A stretch of 46,207 nucleotides of DNA. Origin: Muribaculaceae bacterium (GTDB lineage: Bacteria; Bacteroidota; Bacteroidia; Bacteroidales; Muribaculaceae). How positions within the stretch are numbered: the first letter of the stretch is position 1; each line of letters opens with the position of its first letter. This document shows, one piece after another, positions 997-38,370 of the stretch. The position numbers and the translations under genes are program-made. Below the pieces are notes generated by a model that worked only from the letters and a program-made list of their open reading frames with translations, had not been told where the DNA came from and ran no database searches. The DNA lies in the NCBI GenBank assembly GCA_023663365.1, contig JAMPHP010000002.1:5157-51363 (forward strand), written 5' to 3'.

Positions 997-2697
997 TTAT
1001 CTGATTAAAACCTTGCGGCTCTTCCCATTTTCAACTACGATATACATCTGTGCGTTTCCGGCGAGGCCCTCGAGGCTGTCGGCTACACGGATGCCCTGCA
1101 TATTGTAGACTGCCGAGATGCCGGTGGCGGCATCGACAGTGATGTCCTGAACGCCGTCGAGGTCGGTGCGGATCATGCGGAATGCACTTTTAGCGTTGCC
1201 TACACCCGCCTTATCGCTGTAGACGTTGGCCCAGCCCCAATTGTCGTCGGTTCCGAAGTACTTGCCCGAACCTTCGTTTTTGATACGGGCATATTTGCCG
1301 TCGAACTCAATGTTGAAGATATAGTCCTTGGCAGTAAGGTTGGGCGAGGAGCTCACGCGGAGGTTCCACGAATTGCGATACACATAATCGTTGTCGCCCA
1401 CCTTAAGGTTGAAGCCCTTTACTGCTGCTCCTTCGGGAGCCTCAACGAGAGTGAACGCCTGCTGATAGCCCTTGGAGTCGGCACCTTCGAGGCGGTTGTC
1501 GGTGAGGATGAGCACACAGTGCTCATTGTCCTTCCAGCCTGTGGAGAGGCGCAGATTGGAAGCTACATGCTCGAAGAAGTATTCGCCCGCTACGGCAGGA
1601 TTGTAAGAAGTCTTGTAAGTCTCGATTGCTGCGCGGAGAGCATCGGCTGCTGCTTTTGCGCCGGCTTCGTCGGCGACATCAATCTGAGCCTTAGCGGCTT
1701 CCATTGCATCGGTGAGCGCTTCGCGGGCAGCTGTTGTGTACTCGCCCGGTTCATTGCCCTCAGTAGTGCTGTCGAGAGCTTCCTGAGCCTTGGCAAGGTA
1801 CCAGTTGATGCCGGAGTAGATGCCGTCGGGGGTGTAGACGCGCACGTATTCGATAAGGTACTCGGCAGGGAAAGGAGTGTTGGTGAGACTGCCGCCGTTG
1901 TTGCCGCCGAGAGCGAGGTTCACCCAAGCTGCGTCGAAGAGGTTGTTCTCGTCGCGGTAGGGGTTGTAGCCATCGTCGCCGGGGAGCCAGTCAACTTTGG
2001 GGTTGACGGTACGGTCGAGCTTGGTCTCGTTGAGCAGACGGTCGTCCATATAGAGGCGGATCGACTCATAGTCGAATTCCATGCGCCAGTCGTGATACTT
2101 GTCGGCGAAGTCACTGTCGAAGTTGCTCATGCGGGGAGCCTGACTGCTCCATGTTGCGTTCCAGCGGGTTGAGCTGCCCCAGGCCACGTTGGCGTGGATT
2201 GCGTCGCCGTAGTACTCGAGCATGTCGATTTCGCCGTTGTTGGGCCACTCGCGGCTGTTGCCGCACGCCCAGTAAGCAGGCCAGTAGCCGGTGCCTACAG
2301 GGATTTTTGCGCGCATCTCATAGATGCCGTAGTGGAATTTTGCTTTGGTCTTGAGCGAAGCCGAGGTGTAGTCCACGTATTCGCGGGTCTCCTTCCAGTC
2401 CTTGCCAAAGCGCTTGTAATTGGGGTTTTTGAAGCGCTCTTTCTTGGCTATAATCACGAGTTTGCCATCGCGGAGCTCGAAGTTGGAGTCGGTGTACCAC
2501 TGGTCTTCGTTGTTGCGCTGGAAGCCGATTTCGGCGGTCCACTGCTCCATGTCGAGAGCCTCGGCATCGAATTCGTCGTGGAAAGCGAGCTTGAAGCCGG
2601 GATATTTGTTTTCGATGTCGGCATCGTCCTGAGCTACGGCGGCAGGAGCGAAAGCAAGAGCCTAGAGGAGAGCTGCACCGATAAGAGTAAATCTCAT
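997..2697 (-). pseudogene. GH16 endo-glycanase with in-frame amber codon in its signal peptide
   Basis: Translated from ATG 2697, this is a signal peptide, a GH16 beta-jelly-roll (about residues 35-290) with NGEIDMLE giving nucleophile E156 and acid/base E161, an alanine-rich helical FIVAR-like segment (about 300-360), a beta-rich module, and a C-terminal sorting-like end (GISAVYNMQGIRV then KSRKVLIR). Codon 12 is TAG (2664-2662), inside the hydrophobic core between GAALL and ALAFAPAAVAQ. Everything after it is open to 997. The next in-frame ATG (2550, codon 50) would give a 517-aa product with no export signal and no first jelly-roll strands. GH16 enzymes cleave beta-1,3/1,4-glucans or galactans; in this PUL an endo-beta-1,3-galactanase is inferred. 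It is the last gene of the SusC operon. It could be a pseudogene, a recent variant or a base-call error. Confidence 0.82.
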
Positions 2698-3728: not shown

Positions 3729-5843
3729 TTACTGCTGTGCGGGAGTATCGTGTACGGTGCTCCAGTAGGGGTTCTGGTAGATGGGCGACTGGTCGACCGA
3801 CACACCGTCCATTGTGCTCTCGAGGAAGTGGCTCTCGGCGATGGGGCTCAGGTAGTGAGCCATGCGCCATGAGTAGCCGCTGTCGTACCAGTCGTTGGAC
3901 TTCGACAGGCGCAGGAGCGAGAGGTAGCGGGCATCGCCGTTGAAGCCGCCCTCAACATCGGTGGGCGAGGAGAAAGTGTTCTTGGTGTCGTCGGCCTGAT
4001 CCCAGAGGTATGCTGCGGTGCGTCCGCTCATCTTCTTGGTCATGAACCAATCCTTCATCGGGCCGAATACCTTGCAGCCGTGCTTGAAGAAGCGCTTGGT
4101 CTTGAGCTGGTCGAGGGCGCGCCAGCGGATGAGGTCGTCCCAGCGGAGGCCTTCGCTGATGAGCTCGCTGCGACGCTCGCGGCGGATATTGTAGAGCACC
4201 TTCGAGGTGATACGCTGACCGGCCGAGTAGAGGGCGAAGTCGTGGCTTGTCTGCTCCTCGAGGTCGAGGTCGGTGGCGTTGATGGTGATGTTGGGGTCGG
4301 CGGGCAGACCGGCACGCTCGCGGAGCTTGCTCCAGTATCCCCATGCTTCGCTGTTGAGACCGTCGCCATATTTCTCCCAGGCAGCCTCAAGGTAGATGAG
4401 GTAAGCCTCGGCGGAGCGGAAGATGATTGCTGAAGTGAGGTCGTAGCCACCCTTGCTCCATGTGCTGTTTGTGGCCCAGCCTTTGCCCTTGGTGTAGCCG
4501 GTGGAGGTGGTGAAGTCGACAGTACCGCCTACGATAGCGGGCACCTTGAATTCGGCATCGTTCTTGTTCTTCTTGCCTTCGCCGATGCGCTGGTCGAGGT
4601 TATCGGAATATACATATTCATTGGGAGCCTTCATGAAGAGCTGCCAGCGATAGTCGCGGTTGACCTTGGTGTCGGCCACGAAGTCGTCGCCCTGATAGCC
4701 GGAGCCGGGAGCGTAGATGGGCAGGCCGTTTGCCATCAGGAAGCTGTTGGCATACTCCTGGGTGTAGCCGCGTCCGCCTTTGATATACTGGTTGAAGGAG
4801 TGACCGCCTGCTACGTTGATATCGTAGGCGCGGTACATGATAGCTTCGTCCATGCCCGAGGGATCCTGGATAGAGAAGAGGTTGTAGTAGGGGTTCGAGG
4901 GGAAGTCTTTGCCACCGAGCACCTTCTTATTGTTGGGAGTGAGGCTGGGGTGCTTGTCGCACACCTGCTTGGCGGCATCGAGAGCCTGGTCGAGGAAGAA
5001 GGCAACTTCAGCGGCATTGTCGTAGACCACGTCCTTGTTGTAGTCCTTGGCAGCTCCTGGCCAACCTGCGCTCTTCTCGGGCACGAAGGGAGTGCCTGCG
5101 AAGTACTTCTCGAAAGTAGCCTCATAGAGAGCCACGCGAGCCTTGAAGAGGAGCGCAGCCTGCTTGGTGATGCGGGTGCGGCCGGTAGCGCCACCGTCGC
5201 TCAGGAGCATGATGGCACTGTCGAGGTCGGAGATGATGAAGCGGGCAACTTCGTGGCGCGGACGGCGCTTTGAAGCGTCGATCAGAGTCTGCTTGTCGAG
5301 GGGAAGGGTGTTGCGGAGGATGGGGAAGTCGCCCATGTCGCGGAGCTTGCCGAAGTACTCGGTTGCACGGATCATGTATCCTTCACCGATGTAGTGGCGC
5401 ACGAGCTCGTCGGCACCGCTGATCTGACCTGCCTTCCACTTGGGGAGCACGGTCTCGAGGTAGTAGTTGATGCTGTTGATGGTGCCGAAGCTCCAGCCAC
5501 CGCCGGTAGAGCCCACTTTGCTCTTGGTAGTGCCGTCGAAGAAGCGGTTGTTTGTACCCGACTCGTTGTCGGTGCCCTGGTCATCGTCGAGGAAGAAGCC
5601 GTAGGCCTTGCCGCTAATACCGAACGAAGGGAAGAGGTTGCTGCCGCGGTTGCCCTGCACATCATCACCGTTCTTGTAGAAAGTGATGGTGTAGGCACCG
5701 AGCTGGTCGGCGGAGGTGAAGTATGTCTCGGGGGTAACCTGCGAGGGAGGTGTGATGTCGAGGTAGTCGTCGCACGCGGTGAGGGCGATACCGGCTACGA
5801 GCGCACACATGCCCGATATATTGATTTTCATGAATGTCTTCAT
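3729..5843 (-). CDS. SusD/RagB-family outer-membrane lipoprotein
   Basis: This is a 704-aa SusD-like nutrient-binding lipoprotein that caps the SusC transporter. The signal peptide ends in the lipobox LTAC with Cys24 as the lipidation site, followed by DDYLDITPPSQVTPETYF, the hallmark SusD N-terminus. The body has the TPR-like helices of the family (FKARVALYEATFEKYF; FRSAEAYLIYLEAAWEKYGD) and the C-terminal pattern YNIRRERRSELISEGLRWDDLIRW that marks RagB/SusD proteins. It lies 30 nt downstream of susC, as expected. Alternative starts at 5843 and 5831 (second Met) both give a good signal peptide. The ligand is inferred from neighbours to be arabinogalactan fragments. At about 700 residues it is longer than many SusD proteins. 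Confidence 0.96.
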   Translation of the reverse strand: MKTFMKINISGMCALVAGIALTACDDYLDITPPSQVTPETYFTSADQLGAYTITFYKNGDDVQGNRGSNLFPSFGISGKAYGFFLDDDQGTDNESGTNNRFFDGTTKSKVGSTGGGWSFGTINSINYYLETVLPKWKAGQISGADELVRHYIGEGYMIRATEYFGKLRDMGDFPILRNTLPLDKQTLIDASKRRPRHEVARFIISDLDSAIMLLSDGGATGRTRITKQAALLFKARVALYEATFEKYFAGTPFVPEKSAGWPGAAKDYNKDVVYDNAAEVAFFLDQALDAAKQVCDKHPSLTPNNKKVLGGKDFPSNPYYNLFSIQDPSGMDEAIMYRAYDINVAGGHSFNQYIKGGRGYTQEYANSFLMANGLPIYAPGSGYQGDDFVADTKVNRDYRWQLFMKAPNEYVYSDNLDQRIGEGKKNKNDAEFKVPAIVGGTVDFTTSTGYTKGKGWATNSTWSKGGYDLTSAIIFRSAEAYLIYLEAAWEKYGDGLNSEAWGYWSKLRERAGLPADPNITINATDLDLEEQTSHDFALYSAGQRITSKVLYNIRRERRSELISEGLRWDDLIRWRALDQLKTKRFFKHGCKVFGPMKDWFMTKKMSGRTAAYLWDQADDTKNTFSSPTDVEGGFNGDARYLSLLRLSKSNDWYDSGYSWRMAHYLSPIAESHFLESTMDGVSVDQSPIYQNPYWSTVHDTPAQQ

Positions 5844-5873: not shown

Positions 5874-8800
5874 TTAGATGTCGATGGTCAGACCGAATGA
5901 GAAGGTCTTTGCCAAAGGATAGGAAGAACCGGACTTCATCGACGAAACTTCGAGCGACTCGGGGTCGATCACTTTCGACATCTTGGTCCATGTACAGAGG
6001 TTCTCGGCCGAGAAGAAGAGTCGGAGGTTCTCCACAAAGAATTTCTTGGAGATTTCTTTCGGGAGAGTGTAGCCTACCTGGAGGTTCTTGAGGCGGATGT
6101 AAGAAGCATCCTGGAGGTAGCGTGTCTGCATGATGCGGTTCTTGTTGGTGTAGTAGAGCGGACGTGCGTAGTAAGCGTCGCGGTTCTCGCCGAGCACGCT
6201 GCTCTCGTCGCGCCAGTAGTCGAGGTGCTCGTTGAGGAAGAGCGACTCCCAGCGTCCACCCGAGGTAGCACCCCAGAACACTGCACCCTTGCCGCCTGTG
6301 CCTTGGCCGCCGTCGGGGTTGAAGTAGTAGTCGCGCTTGAGCACGCCCTGGAAGAATACTGTGAGGTCGATGCCCTTCCACTGAGCGAAGAGGTTGAGGC
6401 CGAGGCGGTAGCGGGGCTGCTGGTTACCGATTATCTTGAGGTCGCCGAGGGCGTTCTTGCTGGTACCGCGGGTGATCACACCGTCGCCGTCGATATCCTT
6501 GTACATCATGTCGCCTGCCTGCCAGTTGTCGCCGATCTTGCTCTGGTCGGTGGTGGCGAGGTGAGCGTCCATAGTCTCCTGGTCGCGGGCCACACCGATT
6601 GAGGTGAGACCATAGATATTACCCACCACGTCGCCTGCGATGTAGTTGTTGTAGGGGTCGTAGTTGGAGTTGTTGATGTACTTCTCCACGTTGGGGTATT
6701 CGGTGATTTTGGTCTGGTCGTCGGAGAGGTTTACCTTCACCGAGTAGTTGAAGTCGCGGATGTGGTCCTGCCATGCGAGCTGGAGTTCCCAGCCGTAGGT
6801 GCGCATGGAGAGGTTGTTCTCCTTAGGTACTGATGCACCGAGGATTGCGGGGAGCTTCACGGCGGGGCCTACCATGTCGCTGTTGGAGCGCCAGAAGTAG
6901 TCGAACGAACCGGTGAGGCGATAGCGGAAAGCGGAGAAGTCGACACCGATGTTGGTGTTGCGGATCTTTTCCCAGGTGAGGCTTGAGGAGATGAGGTCGG
7001 GGAAGTAAGCGGTGTTGGGCTTGGCGCCGTTCACGAGCCATGTGCCGGCCTGATTGTAGACACCCATTGTGCGGTAGGTGGGATACCAGCCGCTGGTGTT
7101 CTGGTTGGCGAGCTGACCGTAGGACACACGCACTTTCAAGCTCGGGATGATGGGGCGGATTTTCTCCCAGAAGTTCTCACGGTCGATATTCCAGCCGGCC
7201 GAGAACGAGGGGCTCCATACCCAGCGGCTGTCGCGGCGGAAGCGCGAGGTGCCGTCGTAGCGGAGGTTGACCTCGAGGAGGTACTTGCTGTCGAAGTCGT
7301 AGTTGATACGGCCGAAGAAGCCTGTTGTGCGCCACTGCTGGTAGCGGCCTTCGATGCCGTAGGTCTCCTTGCTGGTGGTGAGGTCGAGCACGGGGAGGTC
7401 CTCGACGAGCATGTCGTCGCGGCTGGCCGAGAGGAGGCGGTCCTTGAAGTCCTCAGCCTGGAAACCGAGCATCACCTTCATGTTGTTCTTCTCGGCGAAG
7501 TTGAAGGAGTAGTCGGTGTAGACGTTGTAGTTGAGGTAGGTCGAACGGTAGGCACGCTCGCTCACGCTGTTGTGCTGGCCGCAGTCGAATGCGATGTGCA
7601 TGTCGTCGGAGCTGAGGCCTTCGAGGTCGTCGGCATCGTGTGCATAGACGATCTTGGAGTCCTGATGGCGCCAGTCGTTGTTGACACGGAGGTTGAACTC
7701 ACCGATGATGTTCCAGTTCTTGAGCGGTGTGATCACGAGCTTGAGCTGGTTGGTGAAGGCATCGTTCTGCTCTTTGTATCGGCCACCGTTCTCGAGGTGC
7801 TCGATGTAGTTGTAGTCAGCGGCGATGTAGCCGTTGGGGTCATACTTGGGGTTGGTCGGAAGGAGGCGGCGTATCACCTTTTCATAGAAACCGCCGGTCA
7901 TGATTGTGGGGCGGTCGTACTCGGTGCGGATCCAGCGGCCGGTGTACTGGAGGTTGAGCCAGTTGGTCATCTTGGCCGAGAATTTACCCATCACGGAGAA
8001 GCGCTCGTAGTTGTCGTTGCCGTACTTGAGGAAGCCGTCCTGATCGAGGAAGTTACCGCTCACATAGTATGTGATTTTGTCGGTACCGCCGGTGAGCGTG
8101 ATGTTGTGCTCCTGGGCAAAAGCTGTCTTTTTATAAAGCTCGTCGATCCAGTTCACGTTGGCATATACACCACCGCACTCGCCGGAACCCCAGCGGCGGT
8201 GAGTGCCATCCCACACATTCTCATAGATGTAGTTGTCGCTGGCACCGGTATAGTATGCGTAAGCGCCGTCCATGAAGTCCTGCTGGAATGCCTTTTTACC
8301 GTCGGTATATGTCTGCACATCGTTGAGGTAGTTGAGGTAGTGCCAGGAGTCCATCATCTCCATGGTGGTGAGGGGCTGGTTGAAGCGGAAGGAGTTGTTG
8401 TAGTGGATCTGGGCACGGCCTTCCGAACCGGTCTTGGTGGTGATAAGAATCACACCGAAGGGAGCGCGCGAACCGTAGATTGAAGAAGCTGCGGCATCCT
8501 TAAGCACCGAAATCGACTCGATATCGTTGGGGTTGAGGGTGTTCATATCACCTTCCATGCCGTCGATGAGGATGAGCGGGCCGCCGTTCGAGCCGTCGCC
8601 GATGGTGCTCATACCGCGCACGTCGATCTGCTTGGAGGCGTTGAGCTCGCCACCGCTGGAAGAGTTGGAGATATTAAGACCGGGAATCACGCCCTGAAGG
8701 GCTGCGGCGGCATTCTGCACGGGGCGCGAAGCGATGTCCTTGGCAGTAGCGGTGCCGACCGAACCGGTGAGGTTTACTTTTTTCTGAGTTGCGAAGCCCA

Positions 8801-9179
8801 CGACCACAACTTCGTCGAGGGCGTTGTTGTTCTCATCGAGCACAACATCAAGGTGACCGGCGCCAACTTTGACGTCCTTGGTCACACAGCCTACATAAGA
8901 TATGGTAAGGGTCTGGCCCGGAGCTGCCTGAATGGTGAAGTTACCGTCGATATCGGTGGTAACACCTTTGTTAGAACCTTTCAGTACAACGCTCGCACCG
9001 ATCAGGGGCTCGCCCTGGCTGTCGGTCACGGTACCTGTAACGGAAGTCGTCTGCGACTTGGATTGTGGCGCCGCTGCCGGAGCAGGGTCAGCCCACACGG
9101 CGGGAGTCGACCAAGCGGCGGAGACACATATCAAGAGTGCCGCGGCAATTCCTGATTTCCATCTCGTATTTGTTAACAT
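5874..9179 (-). CDS. SusC/RagA-family TonB-linked outer-membrane transporter
   Basis: This is a 1101-aa transporter that imports oligosaccharides across the outer membrane using TonB energy. The start at 9179 (MLTNTRWKSGIAAALL) gives a clean signal peptide; an in-frame upstream Met at 9239 lies outside it. Domains in order are a signal peptide, a CarboxypepD_reg-like domain beginning TSVTGTVTDSQGEPLIGASV, the SusC signature NNALDEVVVVGFATQKKVNLTG around the TonB-box region, a plug domain (RPVQNAAAALQGVIPGLNIS; IDVRGMSTIG), and a long beta-barrel ending LAKTFSFGLTIDI. Together with the adjacent SusD it should form the SusCD bin. The barrel end is complete. Regulation probably runs through HTCS sites upstream and a structured leader. 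Confidence 0.97.
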   Translation of the reverse strand: MLTNTRWKSGIAAALLICVSAAWSTPAVWADPAPAAAPQSKSQTTSVTGTVTDSQGEPLIGASVVLKGSNKGVTTDIDGNFTIQAAPGQTLTISYVGCVTKDVKVGAGHLDVVLDENNNALDEVVVVGFATQKKVNLTGSVGTATAKDIASRPVQNAAAALQGVIPGLNISNSSSGGELNASKQIDVRGMSTIGDGSNGGPLILIDGMEGDMNTLNPNDIESISVLKDAAASSIYGSRAPFGVILITTKTGSEGRAQIHYNNSFRFNQPLTTMEMMDSWHYLNYLNDVQTYTDGKKAFQQDFMDGAYAYYTGASDNYIYENVWDGTHRRWGSGECGGVYANVNWIDELYKKTAFAQEHNITLTGGTDKITYYVSGNFLDQDGFLKYGNDNYERFSVMGKFSAKMTNWLNLQYTGRWIRTEYDRPTIMTGGFYEKVIRRLLPTNPKYDPNGYIAADYNYIEHLENGGRYKEQNDAFTNQLKLVITPLKNWNIIGEFNLRVNNDWRHQDSKIVYAHDADDLEGLSSDDMHIAFDCGQHNSVSERAYRSTYLNYNVYTDYSFNFAEKNNMKVMLGFQAEDFKDRLLSASRDDMLVEDLPVLDLTTSKETYGIEGRYQQWRTTGFFGRINYDFDSKYLLEVNLRYDGTSRFRRDSRWVWSPSFSAGWNIDRENFWEKIRPIIPSLKVRVSYGQLANQNTSGWYPTYRTMGVYNQAGTWLVNGAKPNTAYFPDLISSSLTWEKIRNTNIGVDFSAFRYRLTGSFDYFWRSNSDMVGPAVKLPAILGASVPKENNLSMRTYGWELQLAWQDHIRDFNYSVKVNLSDDQTKITEYPNVEKYINNSNYDPYNNYIAGDVVGNIYGLTSIGVARDQETMDAHLATTDQSKIGDNWQAGDMMYKDIDGDGVITRGTSKNALGDLKIIGNQQPRYRLGLNLFAQWKGIDLTVFFQGVLKRDYYFNPDGGQGTGGKGAVFWGATSGGRWESLFLNEHLDYWRDESSVLGENRDAYYARPLYYTNKNRIMQTRYLQDASYIRLKNLQVGYTLPKEISKKFFVENLRLFFSAENLCTWTKMSKVIDPESLEVSSMKSGSSYPLAKTFSFGLTIDI

Positions 9180-9218
9180 GGTATAAAATTTGGTTATTGA
9201 TAGGATTTGATTTTGCTG

Positions 9219-9226
9219 CAAAATTA
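9219..9226 (-). promoter_or_regulatory. Proximal susC -7 box (TAATTTTG)
   Basis: TAATTTTG on the minus strand matches TAnnTTTG and would give a leader of about 30-35 nt. No TTG or TTTG lies 19-21 nt upstream, which suggests dependence on an activator. Direct repeats TTGAATGA (minus strand, starting 9287 and 9265, 22 bp apart) lie just upstream and could be the activator site. Confidence 0.55.
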
Positions 9227-9293
9227 TATCGAAAGGCACATCGGGGCCTGCTCTTTTTCATTCAAAACACTTGTCGAAATCATTCAATTTAGT

Positions 9294-9334
9294 CTCTTTA
9301 GTGCCGCACAGAGGTGCCGTGCGGCACTAAAGAG
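9294..9334 (-). terminator. Perfect 16-bp hairpin upstream of susC
   Basis: CTCTTTAGTGCCGCAC (9294-9309) and GTGCGGCACTAAAGAG (9319-9334) are exact reverse complements with a 9-nt loop. No T run follows on the minus strand. It could end the GH105-DUF2264 transcript or be a structured element within a long susC leader. It lies in the 297-bp gap 9180-9476, which otherwise holds the two susC promoter candidates and the tandem repeats. Confidence 0.75.
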
Positions 9335-9405
9335 TGCAAATTGATGCTAAAAACAATCACCGGAGAAAATGAGTGAGAAAAACATGTTTTATAACACAAT
9401 TTACG

Positions 9406-9443
9406 ATTACTTGACTTTGGTTGAGAATTACTTGAGATTGGTT
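9406..9443 (-). promoter_or_regulatory. Candidate HTCS operator upstream of susC (21-bp tandem repeat)
   Basis: ATTACTTGACTTTGGTT (9406-9422) and ATTACTTGAGATTGGTT (9427-9443) agree at 15 of 17 positions and are exactly 21 bp apart. On the minus strand they read AACCAAA... and AACCAAT..., matching the RACCRA core seen at the GH105 and HTCS promoters. The sequence 36 nt below the proximal copy, CATGTTTT (9386-9379), is a weak match to a -7 box at the same distance as in the other two promoters. Confidence 0.55.
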
Positions 9444-9476
9444 ATTGTGTCGGCTTTCGGAGCCGGGGAGGTGTCG

Positions 9477-11804
9477 TCAGAAGAGGTCGCCAATGGCAGC
9501 ACCTTCACCCCAATGATGATCTTTGGGGAATGGGTCGCCGCCCCACGCTTTCTTGTTTGTCCACGCAAGGGGAGCGTCGGTCCAGAAGGGATGTGTGGCG
9601 GGGAGGCCAAGGGGGAGGAAGGAAAGCGAGGTCATGTAGAGCGAGCCGTTGTTGGTGTACCAGTCGGCAATGTTGGGCTGGCGGCCTGCAAAGCCTATGG
9701 TGAGGAAGCCGCCTTCGTTGAAGTTCTCGCGTCCGTCGAACATGCGGTGCATCACCGTGGTCAGCGCCGAGCGCACCTGCCCGCGGGTGAGGCCGGCGGG
9801 AAGTTTATCGTACCACGCCATCAGGGCAAGAGGCTGCATGGTGGCCATGCGGTAAGGTATCGAGCGACCGAACACCGGGAAGGTGCCCTCGGGCGAAATC
9901 TGGCGCTCGAGCACGATTGCAAACTTCTGCGCACGGCGGAGAGCCCGGTCGTAGTACTTGGTGTAGTGGATGCGTGTGTACTTACCGGCATCGCGCATGG
10001 CCTGAAGTGTCTCCAGATACATGGGGTGGAACACATAGCTGCTGTAGTAGTCGTAGGCAAAGGAGGGGCCATCGGCATACCAACCGTCGCCCACATACCA
10101 CTCCTCTACCTTGCGGATGGCGGAGTTCACACGGTATTCGTCGTGGGGAGCGCCGGCTTTGGCGAGGAAGCTCTCTATGGTCGATGAGAAGAGGAGCCAG
10201 TTGGTGTAAGGCGGGTCCACGCGGCGAAGCTGCGAAAATTCTTCCACATAGCGCTGCTTGGTGGTGTCGTCGAGAGGCATCCAGAGGGCATCATAGCCGC
10301 GGAGGAAGCTCTCGGCCACATAAGCGGCATCGACAAGCGCCTGGCCATGACCGCGCCAGCGGAGATAGTCGGGGCTCTGCGGATCCACGGCGTTGCGGTA
10401 GGAGGCAAGTGCCATGTCGCGCAGTTCCTTGCGCTTGGCCCCCTCGGCAGTGCCGTCGTCGGGCAGCGAAAGCCAGGGCGCGATACCGGCCATAAGGCGG
10501 CCGAAGGTTTCCATGTAAGTCACGCCCTTGTCGCGGCCGTCCCAGTTGGGGCTCACTTCCACGAGCATATTCTTCTGTAGCTCACCCTTGGCCATATTGC
10601 TCAGCACGGGGTGTGCCATCTTATATAAAAGGTCTACCCAATAGGCACGGTCGGCAGAACTGTCGGCCTCAAGGAAGCGGACGTACTCACACGCGGCAAG
10701 CAGGAAAGCTCCCACGCCGAAGTTCGATGTCGAGTTTGCATCGACTACCTGGCCGGGAATGGCTTTCTCGCCAATGGGCTGCACATAGCCTATGCGTCCA
10801 TTCTTCTGCAAGGCAGTGCCTTTGAGGTAGTTCCAACCCTTCTTGGCGGCATCGAGATATTTGGCATCGGTGAGGTATCCGTTGTTGATGCCCCAGAGCA
10901 AGCCGTAGGTGAAGAAGGCAGTGCCCGAGGTCTCCGGGCCGGGAGCATGGGCTTCGTCGAGCATGGAGCGGCTCCAGTAGCCTGCCGGCTGCTGCGAAGC
11001 CACCACGGCATCGGCCATGCTGCGGAATTTATCCTCGAAGAAGGGGCGATGCTTGTAGTCGGCGGGCAGGTCGGCGAGCACCTTTGCAAGGCCGGCGAGC
11101 ACCCAGCCGTCGCCACGCGCCCAGAAGTCCTTCTTGCCGTTGGCACTCTTGTGCTTGGGGTAGACATACTTGGCATCGCGGTAGTAGAGACATGCCTCGG
11201 GGTCGTACATGATGCTGTCGGAGTAGACGATATACTCGTAGAGCTTGTCGAGGTAGCGCTGATTGCCGGTGATTTTGTGGAGCTTAGTCATCACGGGCAT
11301 CACCATGTAGAGGCCGTCGGCCCACCACCAGTAGCCGTGCTGCGGAGTCGACATCTCATACTCCATCACCTCGCGGGCACGACGGATGCGCTTGTCGTCG
11401 GGGAGGATGTTGTAGAGGTCGGCGTAGGTCTGGAAGCAAATCTGCCAGTCGCCGAAGAGCACATGCTCGTCGGTCTCGCCGTAGTTGTATTTCCACTTGC
11501 TGCGGTCGTCGCTCTTTGCGCCTTTCCACTGATTGTGCTCGGCCCAGGTCTGTGAATAGTCGAGCCAGTCGCTGTTGCCGGTGAGCTTGTAAGCCTCCAT
11601 ATTTCCGGTGTGGTAGGCAGCGTTGTCCCAGAAGGGATTGCTGTGCGGGTCATTGTTGGCTTGCCAGTAGTCGTTCACCTTATTAATAATGGCTCTGACC
11701 TCGGCAGCCTCTTTTTCGGGGGTCTTTGGAGCGGCCGATGCCACAGGGGCAAAGCCTGCCGCCGCAACGACAGCCACCAGAATGTGCTTGCTGATTGTAT
11801 TCAT
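9477..11804 (-). CDS. GH105 unsaturated uronyl hydrolase fused to DUF2264 domain
   Basis: This is a 775-aa exported protein with signal peptide MNTISKHILVAVVAAAGFAPVASA. Residues ~30-380 form a GH105/GH88-type (alpha/alpha)6 barrel with WWWADGLYMVMPVMTKL and the catalytic-loop motif FWARGDGWVLAGLAKVL (candidate acid D232). This family removes Delta4,5-unsaturated uronic acid from lyase products. Residues ~385-775 form a complete DUF2264-type domain (YMETFGRLMAGIAPWL; YADGPSFAYDYYSSYVFHPMYLE; FNEGGFLTIGFAGRQPNIADWY). From memory, DUF2264 proteins include beta-glucuronidase-like enzymes of arabinogalactan loci; I could not verify this. It is first gene of the minus arm, with its own promoter divergent from the HTCS. 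The fusion would place two uronide-cleaving activities on one chain. Confidence 0.88.
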   Translation of the reverse strand: MNTISKHILVAVVAAAGFAPVASAAPKTPEKEAAEVRAIINKVNDYWQANNDPHSNPFWDNAAYHTGNMEAYKLTGNSDWLDYSQTWAEHNQWKGAKSDDRSKWKYNYGETDEHVLFGDWQICFQTYADLYNILPDDKRIRRAREVMEYEMSTPQHGYWWWADGLYMVMPVMTKLHKITGNQRYLDKLYEYIVYSDSIMYDPEACLYYRDAKYVYPKHKSANGKKDFWARGDGWVLAGLAKVLADLPADYKHRPFFEDKFRSMADAVVASQQPAGYWSRSMLDEAHAPGPETSGTAFFTYGLLWGINNGYLTDAKYLDAAKKGWNYLKGTALQKNGRIGYVQPIGEKAIPGQVVDANSTSNFGVGAFLLAACEYVRFLEADSSADRAYWVDLLYKMAHPVLSNMAKGELQKNMLVEVSPNWDGRDKGVTYMETFGRLMAGIAPWLSLPDDGTAEGAKRKELRDMALASYRNAVDPQSPDYLRWRGHGQALVDAAYVAESFLRGYDALWMPLDDTTKQRYVEEFSQLRRVDPPYTNWLLFSSTIESFLAKAGAPHDEYRVNSAIRKVEEWYVGDGWYADGPSFAYDYYSSYVFHPMYLETLQAMRDAGKYTRIHYTKYYDRALRRAQKFAIVLERQISPEGTFPVFGRSIPYRMATMQPLALMAWYDKLPAGLTRGQVRSALTTVMHRMFDGRENFNEGGFLTIGFAGRQPNIADWYTNNGSLYMTSLSFLPLGLPATHPFWTDAPLAWTNKKAWGGDPFPKDHHWGEGAAIGDLF

Positions 11805-11839
11805 GGATTAGTGAGGTTTTGCAGAATGATATTGCACTG

Positions 11840-11904
11840 CAAAGTTAATCCTTAGCTTCGACCACCCGAGCAAAAAATTGGTCAATCGCACGGCATAAAT
11901 AGTT
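11840..11904 (-). promoter_or_regulatory. GH105 promoter and candidate HTCS sites
   Basis: The minus strand carries TAACTTTG (11847-11840) as -7 box. A GACCAATTTTTT site starts at 11883, 36 nt upstream of it, and a weaker AACTATTTAT half-site starts at 11904, 21 bp further up. A TTTTTTG adjoins the proximal site, but its 23-nt spacer to the -7 box is too long for a good -33 element. This suggests an activator covering the -33 region. Confidence 0.6.
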
Positions 11905-11929
11905 CAATCACAGCTTTGAGACACTTTTT

Positions 11930-11995
11930 GACCGATTTTTTACCGTCCATGACCGATTTTTTACATTGAAAACATCGCAGTATTTTATAACTTTG
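11930..11995 (+). promoter_or_regulatory. HTCS-operon promoter with 21-bp direct repeats
   Basis: GACCGATTTTTTAC occurs twice, identically, at 11930-11943 and 11951-11964, exactly 21 bp (two helical turns) apart. Directly downstream are TTG (11966-11968), a 19-nt spacer and TAACTTTG (11988-11995), a good Bacteroidetes promoter. The proximal repeat starts 37 nt before the -7 box, almost the same distance as at the GH105 promoter. Autoregulation by the encoded AraC-type HTH is inferred. Confidence 0.7.
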
Positions 11996-12049
11996 TGACG
12001 TAATAATACTTCGACACGTATTTCCCCTTAAAAATCCAATACCCGAGCG

Positions 12050-15000
12050 ATGAAAAACTTCGGTGCACTTTCCATATTGCTGTGTCTTGCCGCGCTGCTG
12101 CCATCGACAGTGCTCGGCGAAACTTTTCATCGGTTTCACCTCGACCACAACGACGGGCTCAGCAACAATTACATCCGCGACATCAGCCAGGATGGCCACG
12201 GATTTGTGTGGATTGCAACAATCGACGGTCTGAACCGCTTCGACGGTGTGTCGTTCCGCCGTTTTTCAAAAGAGAACTCAGGTCTTTCGAGCAATGAGCT
12301 CAACAGCCTCCTGGCCGACCCCAACGACGAAAACATAATCTGGATAAGCACGCGCCACGATGGTCTGTGCAAGTTCGACTACCGCACGTGCACCATATCG
12401 CGGCTTGAGAGCAATCTCCGAAGCAACAACATCACTTCGCTCAACCGCGCCTCCGGCGGCAAAATCTGGGTTACACACTACCACGACATCCCCGACCTTC
12501 TCGACCCCGCCACAGGCATAGCGGGAGGTATCTACGAGAGTACACCCGACGACTTTCCACGCCCGGTGTGGTGCGCCGTGGAAGACTCCGTGCGCCACGC
12601 GCTCTACATAGGCCACGATGGCAAAGGGTTCTCGCACATCAATCTGGTGAACAAGCGCTTTGAGAATTTCCGGCCCGATGCCTCGCGCCCCGACGCCATC
12701 AAAGGATGCATCGTATATTGCATACACGTGGACCGAAACGGCTTCGCGTGGGCAGGAACCGACAAAGGTGTGTCGATATACGACCCCGAACGGCGCAAAT
12801 TCCTGAATATAAGCCACGACGGCACCGACACGTCGCTTCTGCCCGGACAGGTGAGAAGCATCTGCGAGATGAGCAACGGCGATATATGGTTCGGGACTAC
12901 CGAAGGCGGCATCAGCATCCTCTCGGCAGCCGACAGAGCTGCGGCAAACTTCACCTTCTTCAATATCAAACCGGCGCGGAACTACTCCGTGTACAACAAC
13001 ATCTCATCGCCTATCGTGATGAAGATTATGGAGGACAGCTACGGCAACAAATGGATAGGCAACAACAGCGATGCCATCGACGTGTTCACCCACGAGCTGC
13101 CTTTCTTCACTGTCACTCAGCCGTTCACCTCGGCAAGAGGTGTCAACCGGAAGCAAGCCGTGTGGAGCATCGCCCTCACCACCGACGGCCGCACATGGCT
13201 CGGCGGCGACAACGAGGTCCTTGAAGCCGGTTCGTACCCGCCCAAGCGCATAAAGCTCGCCGATGCCAATCTCGGCTACTCCTCGCAGGTAAATGCCATG
13301 CTCGGGCACTCCGACGGCACCCTGTGGGCCGGCACAAGCTATGCCGGCATCTATATCCTTGACAACAACAGGAATAAAACAGCCGAAATCCGCATACCAG
13401 ATGCCGAAATCAAGACCCTGGCCGAGATGCCCGACGGCACGGTATGGGCGGGCACAAGTCTCGGCATATTCAGCATCGACAGCTCTCACGAGGCAGTACC
13501 CGTGCAGGAGTACAATGCTCTCTTGCCCGACTTGTATATCACCTCGATTCTGCACGACAGCGCCGGCACCTTGTGGGTGGGCACTCTCGGCAAAGGAGCC
13601 GTGCGCTTCAGCCCGGCAGGCGACGTGATGCAGAGCTACGACGCCACCAACGGACTGCCCTCCAACGCCGTGAGCACTATTGCCGAAGACAGCGACGGCA
13701 ATATATGGATCGGTACGCGCGAAGGGGCATACCTCATTTCCGACTCCGGCCCGCGGCAGTACAGATGCCTCACGCAGGCCGACGGTCTGGCAAGCAGCTT
13801 CATCAAGTCGGTTCAAGAGGACCGCAACGGCAATGTATGGTTCAGTACAAACCGCGGCATAGCCCTCTACAATCCTGCCGATGGGAAAATCTCTGTATAC
13901 GAGCGCACGCACGCCACCGGGCTGGAGGCTTATATCGAGCAATCGTCGGCGCTCGACCGCAACGGCACCATATACTTCGGCTCGCTCAACGGCCTGACCA
14001 CATTCTCGCCAAGCAGCCATAAGGTGCGCCGTCCGGGCTCCGATGTCGTTCTCACAGAGCTTGTCGTGCACGACAGAAATTCATCGGACCACGACCTCGA
14101 AATCGAAATACCCATCAGCGGAAAGGAAATCACCCTGCCCTACAACCGCAACACTTTCAGCCTGAAATTCAATAACCCCGACATCACCGGTGCTGCAAAC
14201 TCCGAGTACTCCTACAACATGGTCGGCGTGAACGAAGTGTGGACCAAAGGCATGCACAACAATGTGGCAGTCTACCGCAACCTCGCACCCGGAAAATACC
14301 GCTTTCAGGTGCGCCAGCGCCTCAACGGCGCCGAGTGGGGCTCGCCTCAAGTACTGGCATACATCACCATAACCCCGCCGGCGTGGCTGTCGTGGTGGGC
14401 CATCCTGATCTACGTGCTCGCCGGCAGCCTGCTCATCTTTGGCCTGGTGAGCTTCTACAAGCACAAGCTCAACCTCGAGAAAAACCTCGCCATTGAGCGT
14501 GAGAATATCAAGAACGTGCAGAGCCTCAACGAAGAGCGCATGATATTCTTCACCAACATCACCCACGAGCTCCGCACTCCCCTGTCGCTCATCATAGGCC
14601 CCATCGAAGACCTCGTCAACGACTCGTCGATTGCCGATGCAAACAGGCGCAAGCTGCACACCATCCGCACCAGCTCAATGCGCCTGCTCAACCTCATCAA
14701 CGGCATCCTCGAGTTCAGAAAGACAGAGACACATCACCGCAAACTTTCGGTCGTGCAGGACTCGCTGGCGAATTTCGTGCGCGAAGTAGGGCTGCGCTTC
14801 AAGGAGCTCAACAGCAACAAGGAAGTGAGCATCGTAATCGACGTAGCTCAGCTCGAAGGCGTGAAGATGTACTACGACCCCGAGGTTATCACCACCATCA
14901 TCAACAACCTCATGGGCAACGCCATGAAGTACACTCAGCGCGGGCAAATCACCCTGTCGCTAAGCACTTTGACGGAGAAAGGTGTAAAATACGTTGACCT

Positions 15001-16117
15001 CTCCGTGGCCGACACCGGCACAGGCATCTCCAAGGAAGCACTGCCGCACATATTCGAGCGCTACTATCAGGCCGCAAATGCACGCAAGACCGCCGGCACA
15101 GGCATCGGCCTTGCCCTGACCAAAAACCTTGCGGAGCTCCATCAGGGCTCAATATCAGTGACTTCGGAAGAAGGTAAAGGCACGGTGTTCACGGTGCGGC
15201 TGCTCGTCGACAACTCCTATCCCGATGCCAACCACCTCGAAGCCGCAAATGAGCCCGAAAAGTCGGTTTCGACCGCAGGGCACACCGCCATTGCTCCCGA
15301 CGGCAAACTCGTGCTTCTCATCGTGGAAGACGATGCCGACATCCGCGAGTACATAGCACAGGCTTTCTCCGACGACTTCAGGGTAGTGACCGCCTCGAAT
15401 GGCCGCGAGGGCTACGAGGCCGCCATGGCCGAGATGCCCGACATCATCGTCAGCGACATCATGATGCCCGAGATGGACGGCATTGAGCTCTGCGACAAAA
15501 TCAAGAGCGACGCCTCCACAAGCCATATCCCAGTGATTTTACTCACTGCAAAGGATACCATCCGCGACAAGGAGGAAGACTATCGCTCGGGAGCCGACTC
15601 ATACATCACCAAGCCTTTCAGCGCCACTCTCCTGAGAGCGCGCATCAACAATATCATCGAGACACGCCACAAACTCACCATGCGCCTTCTCGACATCCCG
15701 GCTCCACACATGGCCGACGATGCCGACAGCGACGCCAACACTCCCGACAGCAGCACTCCCGCGCAGGAGCTGAGCTCCATCGACAAGGAATTTGTCGAGA
15801 AGCTGCGGCGGCTGGTGGAGGAGAACATGGAGATGGAAGAATTTGACCAGGTGTTCCTCGCCGACCGCATGTGCATGAGCCCCTCCACACTCTACCGCAA
15901 GGTGAAGAGCATCGCCGGCCTGAACCCCAACGAGTTCATCCGCAAAATCAAGCTGCGCAAAGCCCTCGAGCTCCTCGCCGAAGGCTCTCACTCGCTGGCC
16001 GATATAGCCGCAATGACAGGCTTCGGCAGTGCCGCATACTTCCGCCGGCTCTTCAAGAAGGAGTTCGGCGTATCTCCCACGGAATATTTTGAGAAAACCA
16101 AGCGTACAATATCATAA
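12050..16117 (+). CDS. Hybrid two-component system (HTCS) PUL regulator
   Basis: This 1355-aa inner-membrane protein senses a periplasmic oligosaccharide and directly activates transcription. In order it has a signal peptide (1-24); Reg_prop beta-propeller repeats (~30-660; recurrent DGxxWxGT units such as [18 protein letters not shown]); a Y_Y_Y domain (~690-770); a transmembrane helix (~780-803); a HisKA domain with [16 protein letters not shown] (His839); an HATPase domain with [18 protein letters not shown] and [12 protein letters not shown]; a receiver with [10 protein letters not shown] (phospho-acceptor Asp1136) and a KPFSA lysine; and a C-terminal AraC HTH (~1255-1350, ending [17 protein letters not shown]). 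All catalytic residues are present. It begins the plus operon, with only 12 nt to the GH43 gene, so positive feedback is likely. Confidence 0.97.
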
Positions 16118-16129
16118 ACCGACAGCATA

Positions 16130-20785: not shown

Positions 20786-22735
20786 ATGAGAGCAATTCTT
20801 TCAGCGATTCTCACCCTTGCACTCGCAGGCACGGCATCGGCTGCGGACGTACTTAGCCCCGACGGCCGCACACGCCTCTCGGTGGAGCTCATTGATGGCT
20901 GCCCGGTGTACTCTGTAAGCTACGATGGCGAGGTGATGCTCGAGCCGTCGAAACTCGGACTGTGGACCGACACTGCCGACTTCGCCGACTCACTATCGGC
21001 TCTCGGCGACAGCATAGCCGACTTCGAGGCAAACTTCGCCCAGGACCGCATAAAACACTCTACGGTCGACTTCAAGGCACGCCGTCTGCTCACCCGCTTC
21101 CGCAATAAAGACGGGCACACACTCACCATAGAGTGGCTCGTCGGCAACAACGACATAGCTTTCCGCTACCACCTGCCCCGCTTGGGCGAGCGAGGAAGCG
21201 CCGTGGTGCTCCGCGAGAACACCTCGTTCTGCTTTCCATCATTCACCACCACCTTCATCACACCGCAGAGCGACCCTATGATAGGCTGGAAGCGCACCAA
21301 ACCGAGCTATGAAGAAGAGTACAGCGCCGATGCTCCTATGGATGTGCCTTCGCAGTACGGCCACGGCTACACCTTCCCCGCGCTCTTCCACGTGGGCGAC
21401 CGCGGATGGGTGCTCCTGAGCGAGACCGGCGTCGACGGTTCCTACTGTGGCTCACGCCTGAGCGATTTCGCCGGCGGTGCCTACACCATCGAGTACCCTA
21501 TGCCCGAAGAAAACAACGGCAACGGCACTGCAGCGCCGGGTATAGCCCTCCCCGGAGCCACGCCCTGGCGCACTATCACCCTCGGAAGCACGCTCAAGCC
21601 CATCGTCGAGACCGTAATACCCTGGGCGCCCCTGTCACCTCTCTACGAAGCCGACTGCAGCACCGAAGGCCGCGGCACATGGAGCTGGATTATATGGCAG
21701 GATGGCAGCATCAACAGCGACGATCAGCGCAAATTCATCGACTTGGCGGCCGATATGGGCTACAACCATGCTCTCATCGACAACTGGTGGAACACAAACA
21801 TAGGCCGCGAAGGCATGGCAGAGCTCGCTCGATATGCCCGTTCAAAAGGCGTGAACATAGGTGTATGGTACTCATCAAGTGGCTGGTGGAACGACATAGA
21901 GCAAGGCCCTACCGACCTGATGTCGCGCCCAATACCCCGTAAGAAAGAGCTCAAATGGCTGCAAAGCATAGGTGTGAAGACTATTAAGGTCGACTTCTTC
22001 GGCGGCGACAAGCAGGAGACGATGCGCCTCTACGAGGATATCCTCAGCGATGCCGCCGACTATGGCATCAGCGTGATTTTCCACGGCTGCACCCTGCCGC
22101 GCGGTTGGGAGCGCCTCTACCCCAACTACGTTGGCAGCGAGGCCGTGCTTGCGTCGGAAAACCTCGTTTTCTCGCAGGATTTCTGCGATAAAGAAGCCTT
22201 CAACGCATCGCTGCACCCCTTTATCCGCAACACCGTGGGCTGCATGGAGTATGGCGGCACGGTGCTCAACAAGCGCCTTGCCAAGGACGACAAGGGCGGC
22301 AACATCCGTCGCACCGACGATGCTTTCCAGCTCGCCACCGCCATCCTCTTCCAGAACCCCGTGCAGAACTTCGCCCTCACCCCCGAAGCGGTGGCCTCGG
22401 CTCCGGCCGATGCCGTGCGCTTCATGCGCGAGGTGCCCACCACCTGGGATGAGACACGCTTCATCGACGGCTACCCCGGCAAGTACGCAGTGATAGCGCG
22501 CCGACACGCCGACACCTGGTACGTGGCCGGTGTCAGCGCCCTCGACGAGCCCCTCGACCTTTCGCTCGATCTCCCCATGATAGCACCGGGAAGCGTGGCC
22601 GAAGTCTACTCCGGAGATACCGACGGCATCCTCCGTGCCCGTGAGATGAAGGTGAAGAACCCGCACAAGGTCAAAATCACCCTCAACCGGAACCACGGAT
22701 TTGTATTGAAATACCAAAACCAATCTCATGAATAA
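20786..22735 (+). CDS. GH97 glycosidase, retaining (alpha-galactosidase / beta-L-arabinopyranosidase) type
   Basis: This is a 649-aa exported protein with signal peptide MRAILSAILTLALAGTASA. The order is an N-terminal GH97 beta-sandwich (starting VLSPDGRTRLSVEL), a (beta/alpha)8 barrel (GRGTWSWIIWQDGSINSDDQ; YNHALIDNWW; GVNIGVWYSSSGWW) and a C-terminal beta domain. IKVDFFGGDKQETM gives Asp403, the position of the nucleophile in retaining GH97 enzymes, and GSEAV gives Glu452 as a candidate acid/base. Inverting SusB-like members lack this Asp, so a retaining enzyme on alpha-galactose or beta-L-arabinopyranose is the best reading. Both sugars cap arabinogalactan side chains. It overlaps the next gene by 8 nt. 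Confidence 0.9.
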   Translation: MRAILSAILTLALAGTASAADVLSPDGRTRLSVELIDGCPVYSVSYDGEVMLEPSKLGLWTDTADFADSLSALGDSIADFEANFAQDRIKHSTVDFKARRLLTRFRNKDGHTLTIEWLVGNNDIAFRYHLPRLGERGSAVVLRENTSFCFPSFTTTFITPQSDPMIGWKRTKPSYEEEYSADAPMDVPSQYGHGYTFPALFHVGDRGWVLLSETGVDGSYCGSRLSDFAGGAYTIEYPMPEENNGNGTAAPGIALPGATPWRTITLGSTLKPIVETVIPWAPLSPLYEADCSTEGRGTWSWIIWQDGSINSDDQRKFIDLAADMGYNHALIDNWWNTNIGREGMAELARYARSKGVNIGVWYSSSGWWNDIEQGPTDLMSRPIPRKKELKWLQSIGVKTIKVDFFGGDKQETMRLYEDILSDAADYGISVIFHGCTLPRGWERLYPNYVGSEAVLASENLVFSQDFCDKEAFNASLHPFIRNTVGCMEYGGTVLNKRLAKDDKGGNIRRTDDAFQLATAILFQNPVQNFALTPEAVASAPADAVRFMREVPTTWDETRFIDGYPGKYAVIARRHADTWYVAGVSALDEPLDLSLDLPMIAPGSVAEVYSGDTDGILRAREMKVKNPHKVKITLNRNHGFVLKYQNQSHE

Positions 22736-25700: not shown

Positions 25701-26033
25701 GCCATCGACGAAGGCGACAACGCCGCCATCGCCGAGTTCTACCTCCTCGATGCCGATGGCAAACGCCTCTCGCGCGAGCCGTGGACCGTGGTCTACGCCG
25801 ATGCCGAAGATGTGACCGACGGCAACCGCGCCGCCGATAAAATCTACGACCTTCAGGAGTCAACCTTCTGGTCGACCGGCAAGGAAGCCAAATACCCGCA
25901 CGCCATCGTCCTCGACCTCGGCGCTGAGCACACCCTCGGAGGCCTCGAGTATCTCCCCCGCATGGAGGCTGAGGTTCCCGGCGCCATCAAGGACTTCCGC
26001 GTATTTGTGAAAAGCAGCGATTTCAAATATTGA
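22728..26033 (+). CDS. GH43-GH35 fusion: galactanase-like propeller plus beta-galactosidase
   Basis: This is an 1101-aa exported enzyme with two catalytic modules. Residues ~22-330 are a GH43 propeller (NAHGGGILY, YYWYGEY, IERPKVVY with E121, EAPAVF with E226, AQSTYV with Q283), of the same subgroup as the enzyme at 16130. Residues ~336-640 are a GH35 barrel starting GKGTFLLNGEPFVVKAAELH, with VENEYGSYG (acid/base E499) and MCSEFWSGWFDKWG (nucleophile E576). Jelly-roll domains typical of GH35 follow (~690-930), with an F5/8-like module at the C-terminus (~960-1101). Both sets of residues look intact, so this is probably bifunctional on beta-galactosidic linkages. It has no internal frameshift. 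The next gene starts within its stop codon (TGATG). Confidence 0.92.
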   Translation: MNKLITSLALAAAALSAVSAVAAPREQIVQYEQWLDTDGNPVNAHGGGILYHNGKYYWYGEYKKGKTILPEWATWECYRTDVSGVSCYSSPDMVNWTFGGVVLPAEPDIPGSDLHPSKVIERPKVVYNPKTRKFVMWVHAESADYSKAAAGVAVADSPTGPFTYVGSFRPNNAMSRDQTVFVDDDGKAYQFYSSENNQTMYISELTDDYLRPTGKFTRNFIGEAREAPAVFKRNGKYYVLTSGCTGWDPNQAGLAVADSIMGPWTNLGNPCTGKDADKTFYAQSTYVQPVMGKKDAYVAMFDRWNKTDLEDSRYVWLPMQFDGDSITIPWRESWSMDVFDDKGRFEAGKGTFLLNGEPFVVKAAELHYPRIPREYWEHRIQMCKALGMNTICLYVFWNYHEQTPDSFDFEGQKDLAEFIRLCKANDMYVILRPGPYVCAEWEMGGLPWWLLKKKDIKLRENDPYFLERVDKFQKAVAEQVEGLTVADGGPIIMVQVENEYGSYGTDKEYVGNIRDMLRRNFGTDVTLFQCDWSSNYLNNGLDDLIWTMNFGTGANIDQQFASLRHERPESPLMCSEFWSGWFDKWGGNHETRPAADMIAGLTEMLDKGISFSLYMTHGGTNWGHWAGANSPGFAPDVTSYDYDAPISEYGEATPKYHALREALAKYHIGRLPAVPKAIPSVAVKEFTFTEFAPLFDNLPAPKSDKKIRTMEEYDQGFGSILYRTTLPELTSQAVLTIDEPHDFAQVFIDGRYIGKLDRRLGEKQLTIPAVKAGARLDILVEAMGRINFGRAIKDFKGITDKVTVTIDKAGYPFTTELRNWDVFNLPDEPAFYSGMNFKPLAEATRKESGRLPAGVYRTTFKVKKPGDTFINMEGWGKGLVYVNGHDLGRFWEIGPQQTLYLPGCWLNKGDNEIVVFDIVGPQQARSEGLAKPVIDKLLTPKPLTHREEGQKLDLSAEKPVMSGSFKPGNGWQKVDFPSEASGRYVALEFLNAIDEGDNAAIAEFYLLDADGKRLSREPWTVVYADAEDVTDGNRAADKIYDLQESTFWSTGKEAKYPHAIVLDLGAEHTLGGLEYLPRMEAEVPGAIKDFRVFVKSSDFKY

Positions 26034-38316: not shown

Positions 38317-38370
38317 CTTTTTTAGGTGAGTTTTTCGACTTGATGAACGCTTTTTGCGGCAGGATTGTTG

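Follow-up and report, generated by a model that had tools for sequence, protein, structure and literature searches.

Paired half-sites 21-22 bp apart precede the promoters of a PUL, and with a probability of about 0.8, they are operators of the HTCS encoded at 12050-16117, which would use them to activate its own operon, the divergent GH105 gene, and susCD. This assignment is drawn from sequence, with the binding protein assigned by its position in the locus. HTCSs are a major class of regulators for the use of dietary and host glycans by gut Bacteroidota. The analysed stretch of 46,207 nt, referred to as the window, corresponds to positions 5157-51363 of contig 22 in a 2.86-Mb genome. Its PUL genes, identified by Pfam matches, are arranged as follows.

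997-2550, minus strand: GH16 gene
3729-5843, minus strand: SusD gene, downstream of the SusC gene
5874-9179, minus strand: SusC-like transporter gene with a TonB-dependent receptor plug
9477-11804, minus strand: GH88/GH105-type hydrolase fused to DUF2264, divergent from the HTCS gene
12050-16117, plus strand: HTCS gene, the likely regulator
after the HTCS gene, plus strand, in order: GH43, GH127, GH51, GH97, GH43+GH35, BNR_4

The label GH105 is that of the initial annotation, the model actually matched being Pfam Glyco_hydro_88, and GH51 denotes a match to Alpha-L-AF_C. The HTCS gene shares its locus with susC and susD, and the HTCS is the sole regulator among the 12 PUL proteins scanned with Pfam. 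It combines Reg_prop (the propeller), Y_Y_Y, HisKA, HATPase_c, Response_reg (the receiver), and an AraC-type HTH_18 domain in a single chain, all exceeding the Pfam cut-offs, which is the composition of a hybrid two-component protein. Its receiver has, at residue 1158, a SHIP motif, which has been linked to keeping the DNA-binding domain inhibited until the protein is phosphorylated (PMC11253607). At least one other HTCS relative is encoded in the same genome. The enzyme families point to pectic arabinan or arabinogalactan as the likely substrate. One protein of 1101 aa (22728-26033) joins a GH43 domain to a GH35 beta-galactosidase.

Direct repeats at the HTCS and GH105 promoters

The elements assigned between the two divergent genes are listed below, with conservation given relative to G128, a relative from the same genus that serves as the ortholog for comparison.

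11840-11847, minus strand: GH105 promoter -7 box, TAACTTTG, 38 nt from the proximal half-site
11871-11885, minus strand: putative GH105 operator, proximal half-site, TTGACCAATTTTTTG (matrix scan, shuffles, direct repeat)
11893-11907, minus strand: putative GH105 operator, distal half-site, TTGAACTATTTATGC (tandem at lag 22)
11928-11942, plus strand: putative HTCS operator, distal half-site, TTGACCGATTTTTTA (exact repeat; 13/15 bases kept in G128)
11949-11963, plus strand: putative HTCS operator, proximal half-site, ATGACCGATTTTTTA (21 bp from the distal one; 12/15 bases kept in G128)
11988-11995, plus strand: HTCS promoter -7 box, TAACTTTG, 39 nt from the 5' base of the proximal half-site

At the HTCS promoter, TGACCGATTTTTTAC occurs twice, 21 bp apart and with all 15 bases identical (11929-11943 and 11950-11964), just as the initial annotation had described. 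A matrix was built from 12 half-sites, chosen by eye, of six HTCS promoters (window, L045, L050, L051, L053, L055) and was used to scan the whole window at lags 21 and 22. The HTCS pair, a training site, ranks first. The GH105 pair (11907/11885, minus strand), on which the matrix was not trained, is the second-best tandem, with a score of 28.7 as compared to 11.2 for the next independent site in the window. None of 2000 shuffles of the GH105 promoter reaches this score, the largest value being 22.6. At lag 21, the GH105 score is only 15.6, and the repeat itself comprises 16 nt that are 81% identical at a spacing of 22. These data support the operator proposed earlier for this promoter but place its partner at 22 bp rather than at 21 bp.

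The GH105-HTCS intergenic region has 130 identical bases among 239 aligned between the window and G128. The half-sites of the HTCS promoter are retained as listed above, whereas the 6-nt spacer between them keeps 1/6; the -7 box keeps 7/8. A tandem of the same type, in variant form, also precedes the orthologous HTCS gene in L050, L051, and L055. The GH105 half-sites keep 10/15 and 9/15 bases, little above the background, and 7/8 are kept in 11842-11849, which is offset from the GH105 box by two bases. The conservation anticipated for the orthologous locus is thus evident at the HTCS promoter and near background at GH105, but it does not extend to the pair originally named for susC (9443/9422).

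The RACCRA core singled out in the initial annotation describes these sites less well. The pattern RACCRA-N15-RACCRA has three exact matches in the window as compared to 0.10 expected, and 0 of 100 shuffles reach three. Genome-wide, however, enrichment all but disappears, with 10 matches (three of them inside the window PUL) versus 6 in the reversed control; RACCRA is therefore a poor detector. The form TTGAMYRA suits all three promoters better, with the proximal HTCS copy starting ATGA instead of TTGA. A third RACCRA pair, absent from the initial annotation, lies at 16096-16122. It was rejected as a GH43 promoter because it lies across the HTCS stop codon, no TAnnTTTG is present within 140 nt, and the end of the HTCS gene in G128 shows no similar feature. 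RACCRA was accordingly discarded as the motif core, and the matches at 9417-9443 and 16096-16122 are probably incidental.

An exact pattern was also searched across 398 genomes of the family. Pairs of TTGACSRAT at lags 11-41 give 80 matches in 59 genomes, as compared to 13 among the listed matches of the reversed control. Three of the 80 are at lag 21, two of which are the HTCS loci L050 and L051, and five are at lag 20; the rest are dominated by unrelated short repeats, making the pattern uninformative. Similar TTGACGAAT pairs at lag 33 were seen in three genomes (G239:C12, G374:C35, G132:C2) and possibly represent another operator architecture. A 50-nt sequence flanked by TTGACCAAT is present five times in G296 (C7, C17, C47, C49), with a similar one in G355:C32. 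Several of the G296 copies lie near a contig start, resembling the end of a repeated mobile element.

Spacing and promoter distance among HTCS loci

Spacing was examined by a motif-free test, in which the best 14-nt self-match at each lag of 12-45 in the upstream regions is compared with dinucleotide shuffles; start codons in the relatives are estimates. For 21 HTCS genes (the window and 20 relatives), the combined z is 10.6 at lag 21 and 5.3 at lag 22, as compared to a maximum of 2.6 (lag 44) among the remaining lags. Lag 21 is the best lag in 10/21 loci and lag 22 in 3/21. The signal persists in a reduced set of 17, from which the window and G128 were removed and in which two near-duplicate pairs were each cut to a single locus (z 7.5 at lag 21 and 3.9 at lag 22). 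An order-wide set drew on 43 matches from other families than that of the window, of which 40 were used; loss of one locus without a start codon left 39, and removal of one carrying a 7-bp microsatellite left 38. These 38 loci still peak at lag 21 (z 3.6, with lags 22 and 42 at 2.4); the value is 4.3 when the microsatellite locus is included. No lag-21 peak is found in 13 more distant HTCS loci of the family (L028-L040), where z is 1.3 at lag 21 and 1.7 at lag 22. Because these distant loci lack the peak and the order-wide peak is weaker, the spacing is not universal among HTCS upstream regions. A spacing of about 21 bp is a real property of the window's HTCS group and not of every HTCS upstream region. 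The 13 distant loci have a combined peak of their own at lag 25 (z 4.9).

A second matrix, made from six half-sites of the window and G128 only, was applied to 32 other HTCS upstream regions, a set that includes a few close relatives. A pair at 21 or 22 bp that is matched by 0 of 100 shuffles is present in 9/32, and the other 23 contain no pair beating all 100. Among lags 14-35, the best is 21 in 10/32 loci and 22 in 4/32. Some pairs face the divergent gene instead of the HTCS gene (L049, L061, L064). Across the 32 loci, the matrix score does not track DNA-binding-domain identity (Spearman 0.20, p 0.27). The motif alone therefore does not name the binding protein, and a related HTCS could also bind.

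The position of the repeats relative to the promoter was gauged with TAnnTTTG, the -7 consensus that has been derived for the B. fragilis primary sigma factor (PMC7366714). Five matches are present in 997-27334, two of which (20322, 21795) are antisense inside genes. The three intergenic matches, at 9219-9226 (minus strand), 11840-11847 (minus strand), and 11988-11995 (plus strand), each have a TTGA/ATGA pair 38-39 nt upstream, the proximal half-site lying 39 nt from the box at susC, 38 nt at GH105, and 39 nt at HTCS. The 37 and 36 nt reported earlier for the HTCS and GH105 promoters are correct when counted from GACC; from the TTGA/ATGA start, the values become 39 and 38. In G128, the distance is 39 nt at both HTCS and susC, and the single clear GH105 half-site lies 37 nt from its box when counted from TGACG, equal to 38 nt from TTGACG.

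Nine further loci, picked by matrix score alone (0/100 shuffles), extend this comparison. The box is 38 nt away in L049, L055, and L064 and 60-61 nt away in L050, L051, and L061 (L050 and L051 being alike); L048, L060, and L062 have no box within 140 nt (L060 and L062 being alike). The training locus L053 has its box at 39 nt. The 22-nt step between the two distance classes equals one operator spacing. Upstream of the L061 HTCS gene, a possible third half-site, noted by eye, lies between the pair and the -7 box, one 22-bp step further, and would explain the 60-nt distance there. In a motif-free count anchored on the last TAnnTTTG upstream of each of the 21 HTCS genes, lag 21 peaks at offsets 36-40, with 4.9-5.0 of 12 positions matching as compared to a mean over offsets of 4.1.

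The susC promoter region

The initial annotation had assigned the susC operator to a RACCRA tandem at 9443/9422. A 17-nt direct repeat is indeed present, but this site is very probably the wrong one, and we rejected it as the susC operator: its matrix score is about -25 (-12.8 and -12.6 for the halves), no TAnnTTTG lies within 140 nt downstream, and it is absent from the G128 alignment. It has little in common with the HTCS and GH105 sites beyond RACCRA. A better candidate is found closer to the susC gene. The features of the region are listed below.

9219-9226, minus strand: susC promoter -7 box, TAATTTTG, unchanged in G128
9251-9265, minus strand: candidate susC operator, proximal half-site, TTGAATGAAAAAGAG, 22 bp from the distal one; weak by matrix
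9273-9287, minus strand: candidate susC operator, distal half-site, TTGAATGATTTCGAC (TTGAMYRA-N14-TTGAMYRA)
9383-9398, no strand assigned: palindrome CATGTTTTATAACACA, possible site of a CRP-like global regulator of the BT4338 type, 2 mismatches to the consensus
9406-9443, minus strand: direct repeat, 17 nt, 88% identical, spacing 21; probably not an operator of the window HTCS

The candidate, chosen by eye, has the form TTGAATGA-N14-TTGAATGA at 9287/9265 (minus strand, lag 22), 39 nt before the TAATTTTG box. The pattern TTGAMYRA-N14-TTGAMYRA, composed after this site was seen, has this single match in the 2.86-Mb genome and 0 in the reversed control. In G128, the two copies differ from those of the window in the same way, each half being TTGATTGA. 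The matrix score of the pair is 9.4, which 176/2000 shuffles of the region reach and which is thus not significant. Higher scores occur elsewhere in the window at 9197 (minus strand, with one good half only) and at 38322/38343 (plus strand), so the matrix alone does not establish the susC pair; the unique pattern match and the parallel difference in G128 carry more weight. The susC relatives were of little help as a footprinting set. In a set of 19 susC upstream regions, made up of those of the window and G128 together with 17 more (L082 was too short), z at lag 21 is only 2.6, and lags 12 and 17 give 2.4. The window susC region alone, taken as 220 nt that exclude the 9443/9422 pair, gives z of 2.1 at lag 22 and -0.7 at lag 21, and the lag-21 peak of the G128 susC region stems from a different repeat. 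The susC site to footprint is now the candidate at 9251-9287.

Several other elements are present between GH105 and susC. The 9406-9443 repeat, which has neither a promoter box nor a G128 counterpart, may be a recent duplication or a site of another regulator. In the G128 locus (L045, 1244-5328), extra genes with weak matches to the window GH43 and GH51 proteins lie between GH105 and susC, and they end near the position equivalent to this repeat. A very stable hairpin (9284-9344; -38.8 kcal/mol, z -9.7) lies between the GH105 stop codon and the susC promoter and overlaps the distal candidate half-site. It has 26-nt arms that are 88% complementary, separated by a 9-nt gap, and is possibly a terminator or an insulator; the 16-nt core of its arm has no other copy in the genome within 2 mismatches. 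An Rfam scan of 9100-12100 returned one chance-level match (E 0.99) and nothing beyond it.

The palindrome at 9383-9398 was compared with the BT4338 consensus as quoted in PMC11501099. It is not significant alone, since 31/100 window shuffles hold a match within 3 mismatches, and its G128 counterpart, TATGTTATAAAACATG, has one mismatch to the consensus. Over the whole genome, palindromes within 2 mismatches number 25, as compared to 7 in the control; a regulon of the BT4338 kind is therefore likely in this genome, and it may reach the window PUL. In L066, the region upstream of susC has a further direct repeat, two copies of ATTGGTGCGC spaced 21 bp, between a BT4338-like palindrome and a TTGATTGA pair.

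Proposed mechanism and relation to known HTCS systems

The initial annotation explained the repeats by an AraC-type HTH dimer bound to one face of the DNA. For the HTCS and GH105 promoters, this remains the best reading, given the recurring lag-21 tandem, the retention of the HTCS half-sites relative to their spacer, and the constant distance to the box; it does not apply to the susC site as first named. Nor is the spacing an equal 21 bp throughout, as had been stated, but 21 bp at HTCS, 22 bp at GH105, and 22 bp at the candidate susC site, all of which agree with direct-repeat half-sites about 21 bp apart of the type described in PMC3878776. We propose that the periplasmic propeller senses an oligosaccharide, leading to phosphorylation of the receiver domain. 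The C-terminal AraC-type HTH domains of two protomers would then bind the half-sites head to tail, the 21-22 bp between these amounting to two helical turns and placing both on one DNA face. Lying 38-39 bp from the -7 box on its upstream side, the proximal protomer would be next to RNA polymerase and would probably activate rather than repress. Three transcription units would be activated in this manner: that of the HTCS gene, which would also cover the downstream GH43-GH127-GH51-GH97-GH43/GH35-BNR_4 genes; that of the divergent GH105 gene; and susCD, by way of the weaker site at 9251-9287. The downstream enzymes are probably co-transcribed with the HTCS gene, since from the HTCS promoter to 27334 the plus strand has no TAnnTTTG. 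The HTCS gene is the first of its own operon, so its activation would constitute positive feedback.

The repeats could instead be operators of another regulator acting in trans, either a different HTCS or a cytoplasmic AraC-type activator. Similar pairs do precede HTCS genes with DNA-binding domains that share only about 34-39% identity with that of the window HTCS (L055, L060, L061, L062, L064), the genome holds the further HTCS relative mentioned above, and BT0366 has been reported to bind other PULs in trans (PMC3404733). However, the tandem is retained before the orthologous HTCS gene in G128, L050, L051, and L055, the HTCS is the only regulator among the PUL proteins scanned, and the regulons described in PMC3878776 act mainly on the neighbouring PUL. 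Action by such a trans regulator is therefore considered unlikely. It is more improbable still that the repeats are merely phased T-tracts, TTTTTT runs two turns apart that bend DNA or contact the RNA polymerase alpha subunit in a UP-like manner without a specific regulator. T6 is present in both exact HTCS copies, at two-turn spacing and just upstream of the promoter, but what they share with GH105 and susC is TTGAMYRA, a non-T core. T6 is missing from the susC half-sites, and both L053 half-sites and the distal L055 half-site keep the 21-bp spacing without a T-tract. If a short degenerate core simply matched by chance in A+T-rich intergenic sequence, this would account for the weak genome-wide enrichment of RACCRA-N15-RACCRA and for the two of three window matches (9417-9443 and 16096-16122) that have no promoter box. 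For the HTCS and GH105 promoters, chance is already contradicted by the pairs themselves and by the lag-21 peak, which far exceed the shuffled controls, and as a general explanation, it deserves hardly any credence; it may still hold for the candidate susC pair. Binding by the HTCS of the locus thus remains our preferred reading.

A broader proposal is put forward tentatively and at somewhat less than even odds. HTCS-activated promoters of this family may follow a strict, helically quantised geometry, with half-sites 21-22 bp apart and the proximal one 38-39 or 60-61 bp from TAnnTTTG, and an HTCS gene that heads its enzyme operon under its own operator may form a positive-feedback switch, unlike the constitutive-sensor design of BT1754. 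A statement of a fixed distance between HTCS repeats and the -7 box was not found in the literature searched, which included few subscription journals and no supplements. The accessible text of HTCS papers reports predicted motifs and little direct operator mapping. A defined spacing and a fixed -7-box distance would help to predict operators from single genomes, and the geometry would show which operons each sensor controls, including that of the regulator itself.

The architecture itself is already published. For B. thetaiotaomicron, Ravcheev et al. (2013) predicted 16 HTCS motifs, all direct repeats with an average distance of 21 bp, and inferred a dimer on one DNA side (PMC3878776); our site appears to be a new example in a new cluster. 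Like the Bacteroides operators described there (HTCS_Man, HTCS_Rgu-1, HTCS_Rgu-2, HTCS_Hep, and others), the window repeats are direct, about 21 bp apart, and upstream of operons of their own PUL, the likeness being one of architecture. The window differs from the accessible account of those operators in its bacterium and in placing an operator before the HTCS gene itself, which heads an enzyme operon. It goes beyond that account in a spacing of 21 at one promoter and 22 at two, and in a measured distance to the -7 box. HTCS response-regulator fragments whose inhibitory interface is relieved bind promoters with predicted sites in EMSA (PMC11253607), and ChIP-seq places the membrane-spanning HTCSs BT0366 and BT1754 of B. 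thetaiotaomicron on DNA adjoining the PUL that they control (PMC3404733). The BT1754 promoter is described in the latter source as constitutive and low, whereas the own promoter of the window regulator carries the repeat; autoregulation is therefore not general among HTCSs. XylR-type regulators of the AraC family (XylR is named an AraC-type regulator in PMC11253607) likewise recognize two A+T-rich direct repeats, as described for XylRA (PMC12125979), but they are soluble regulators with other promoters and, unlike the window system, are not HTCSs.
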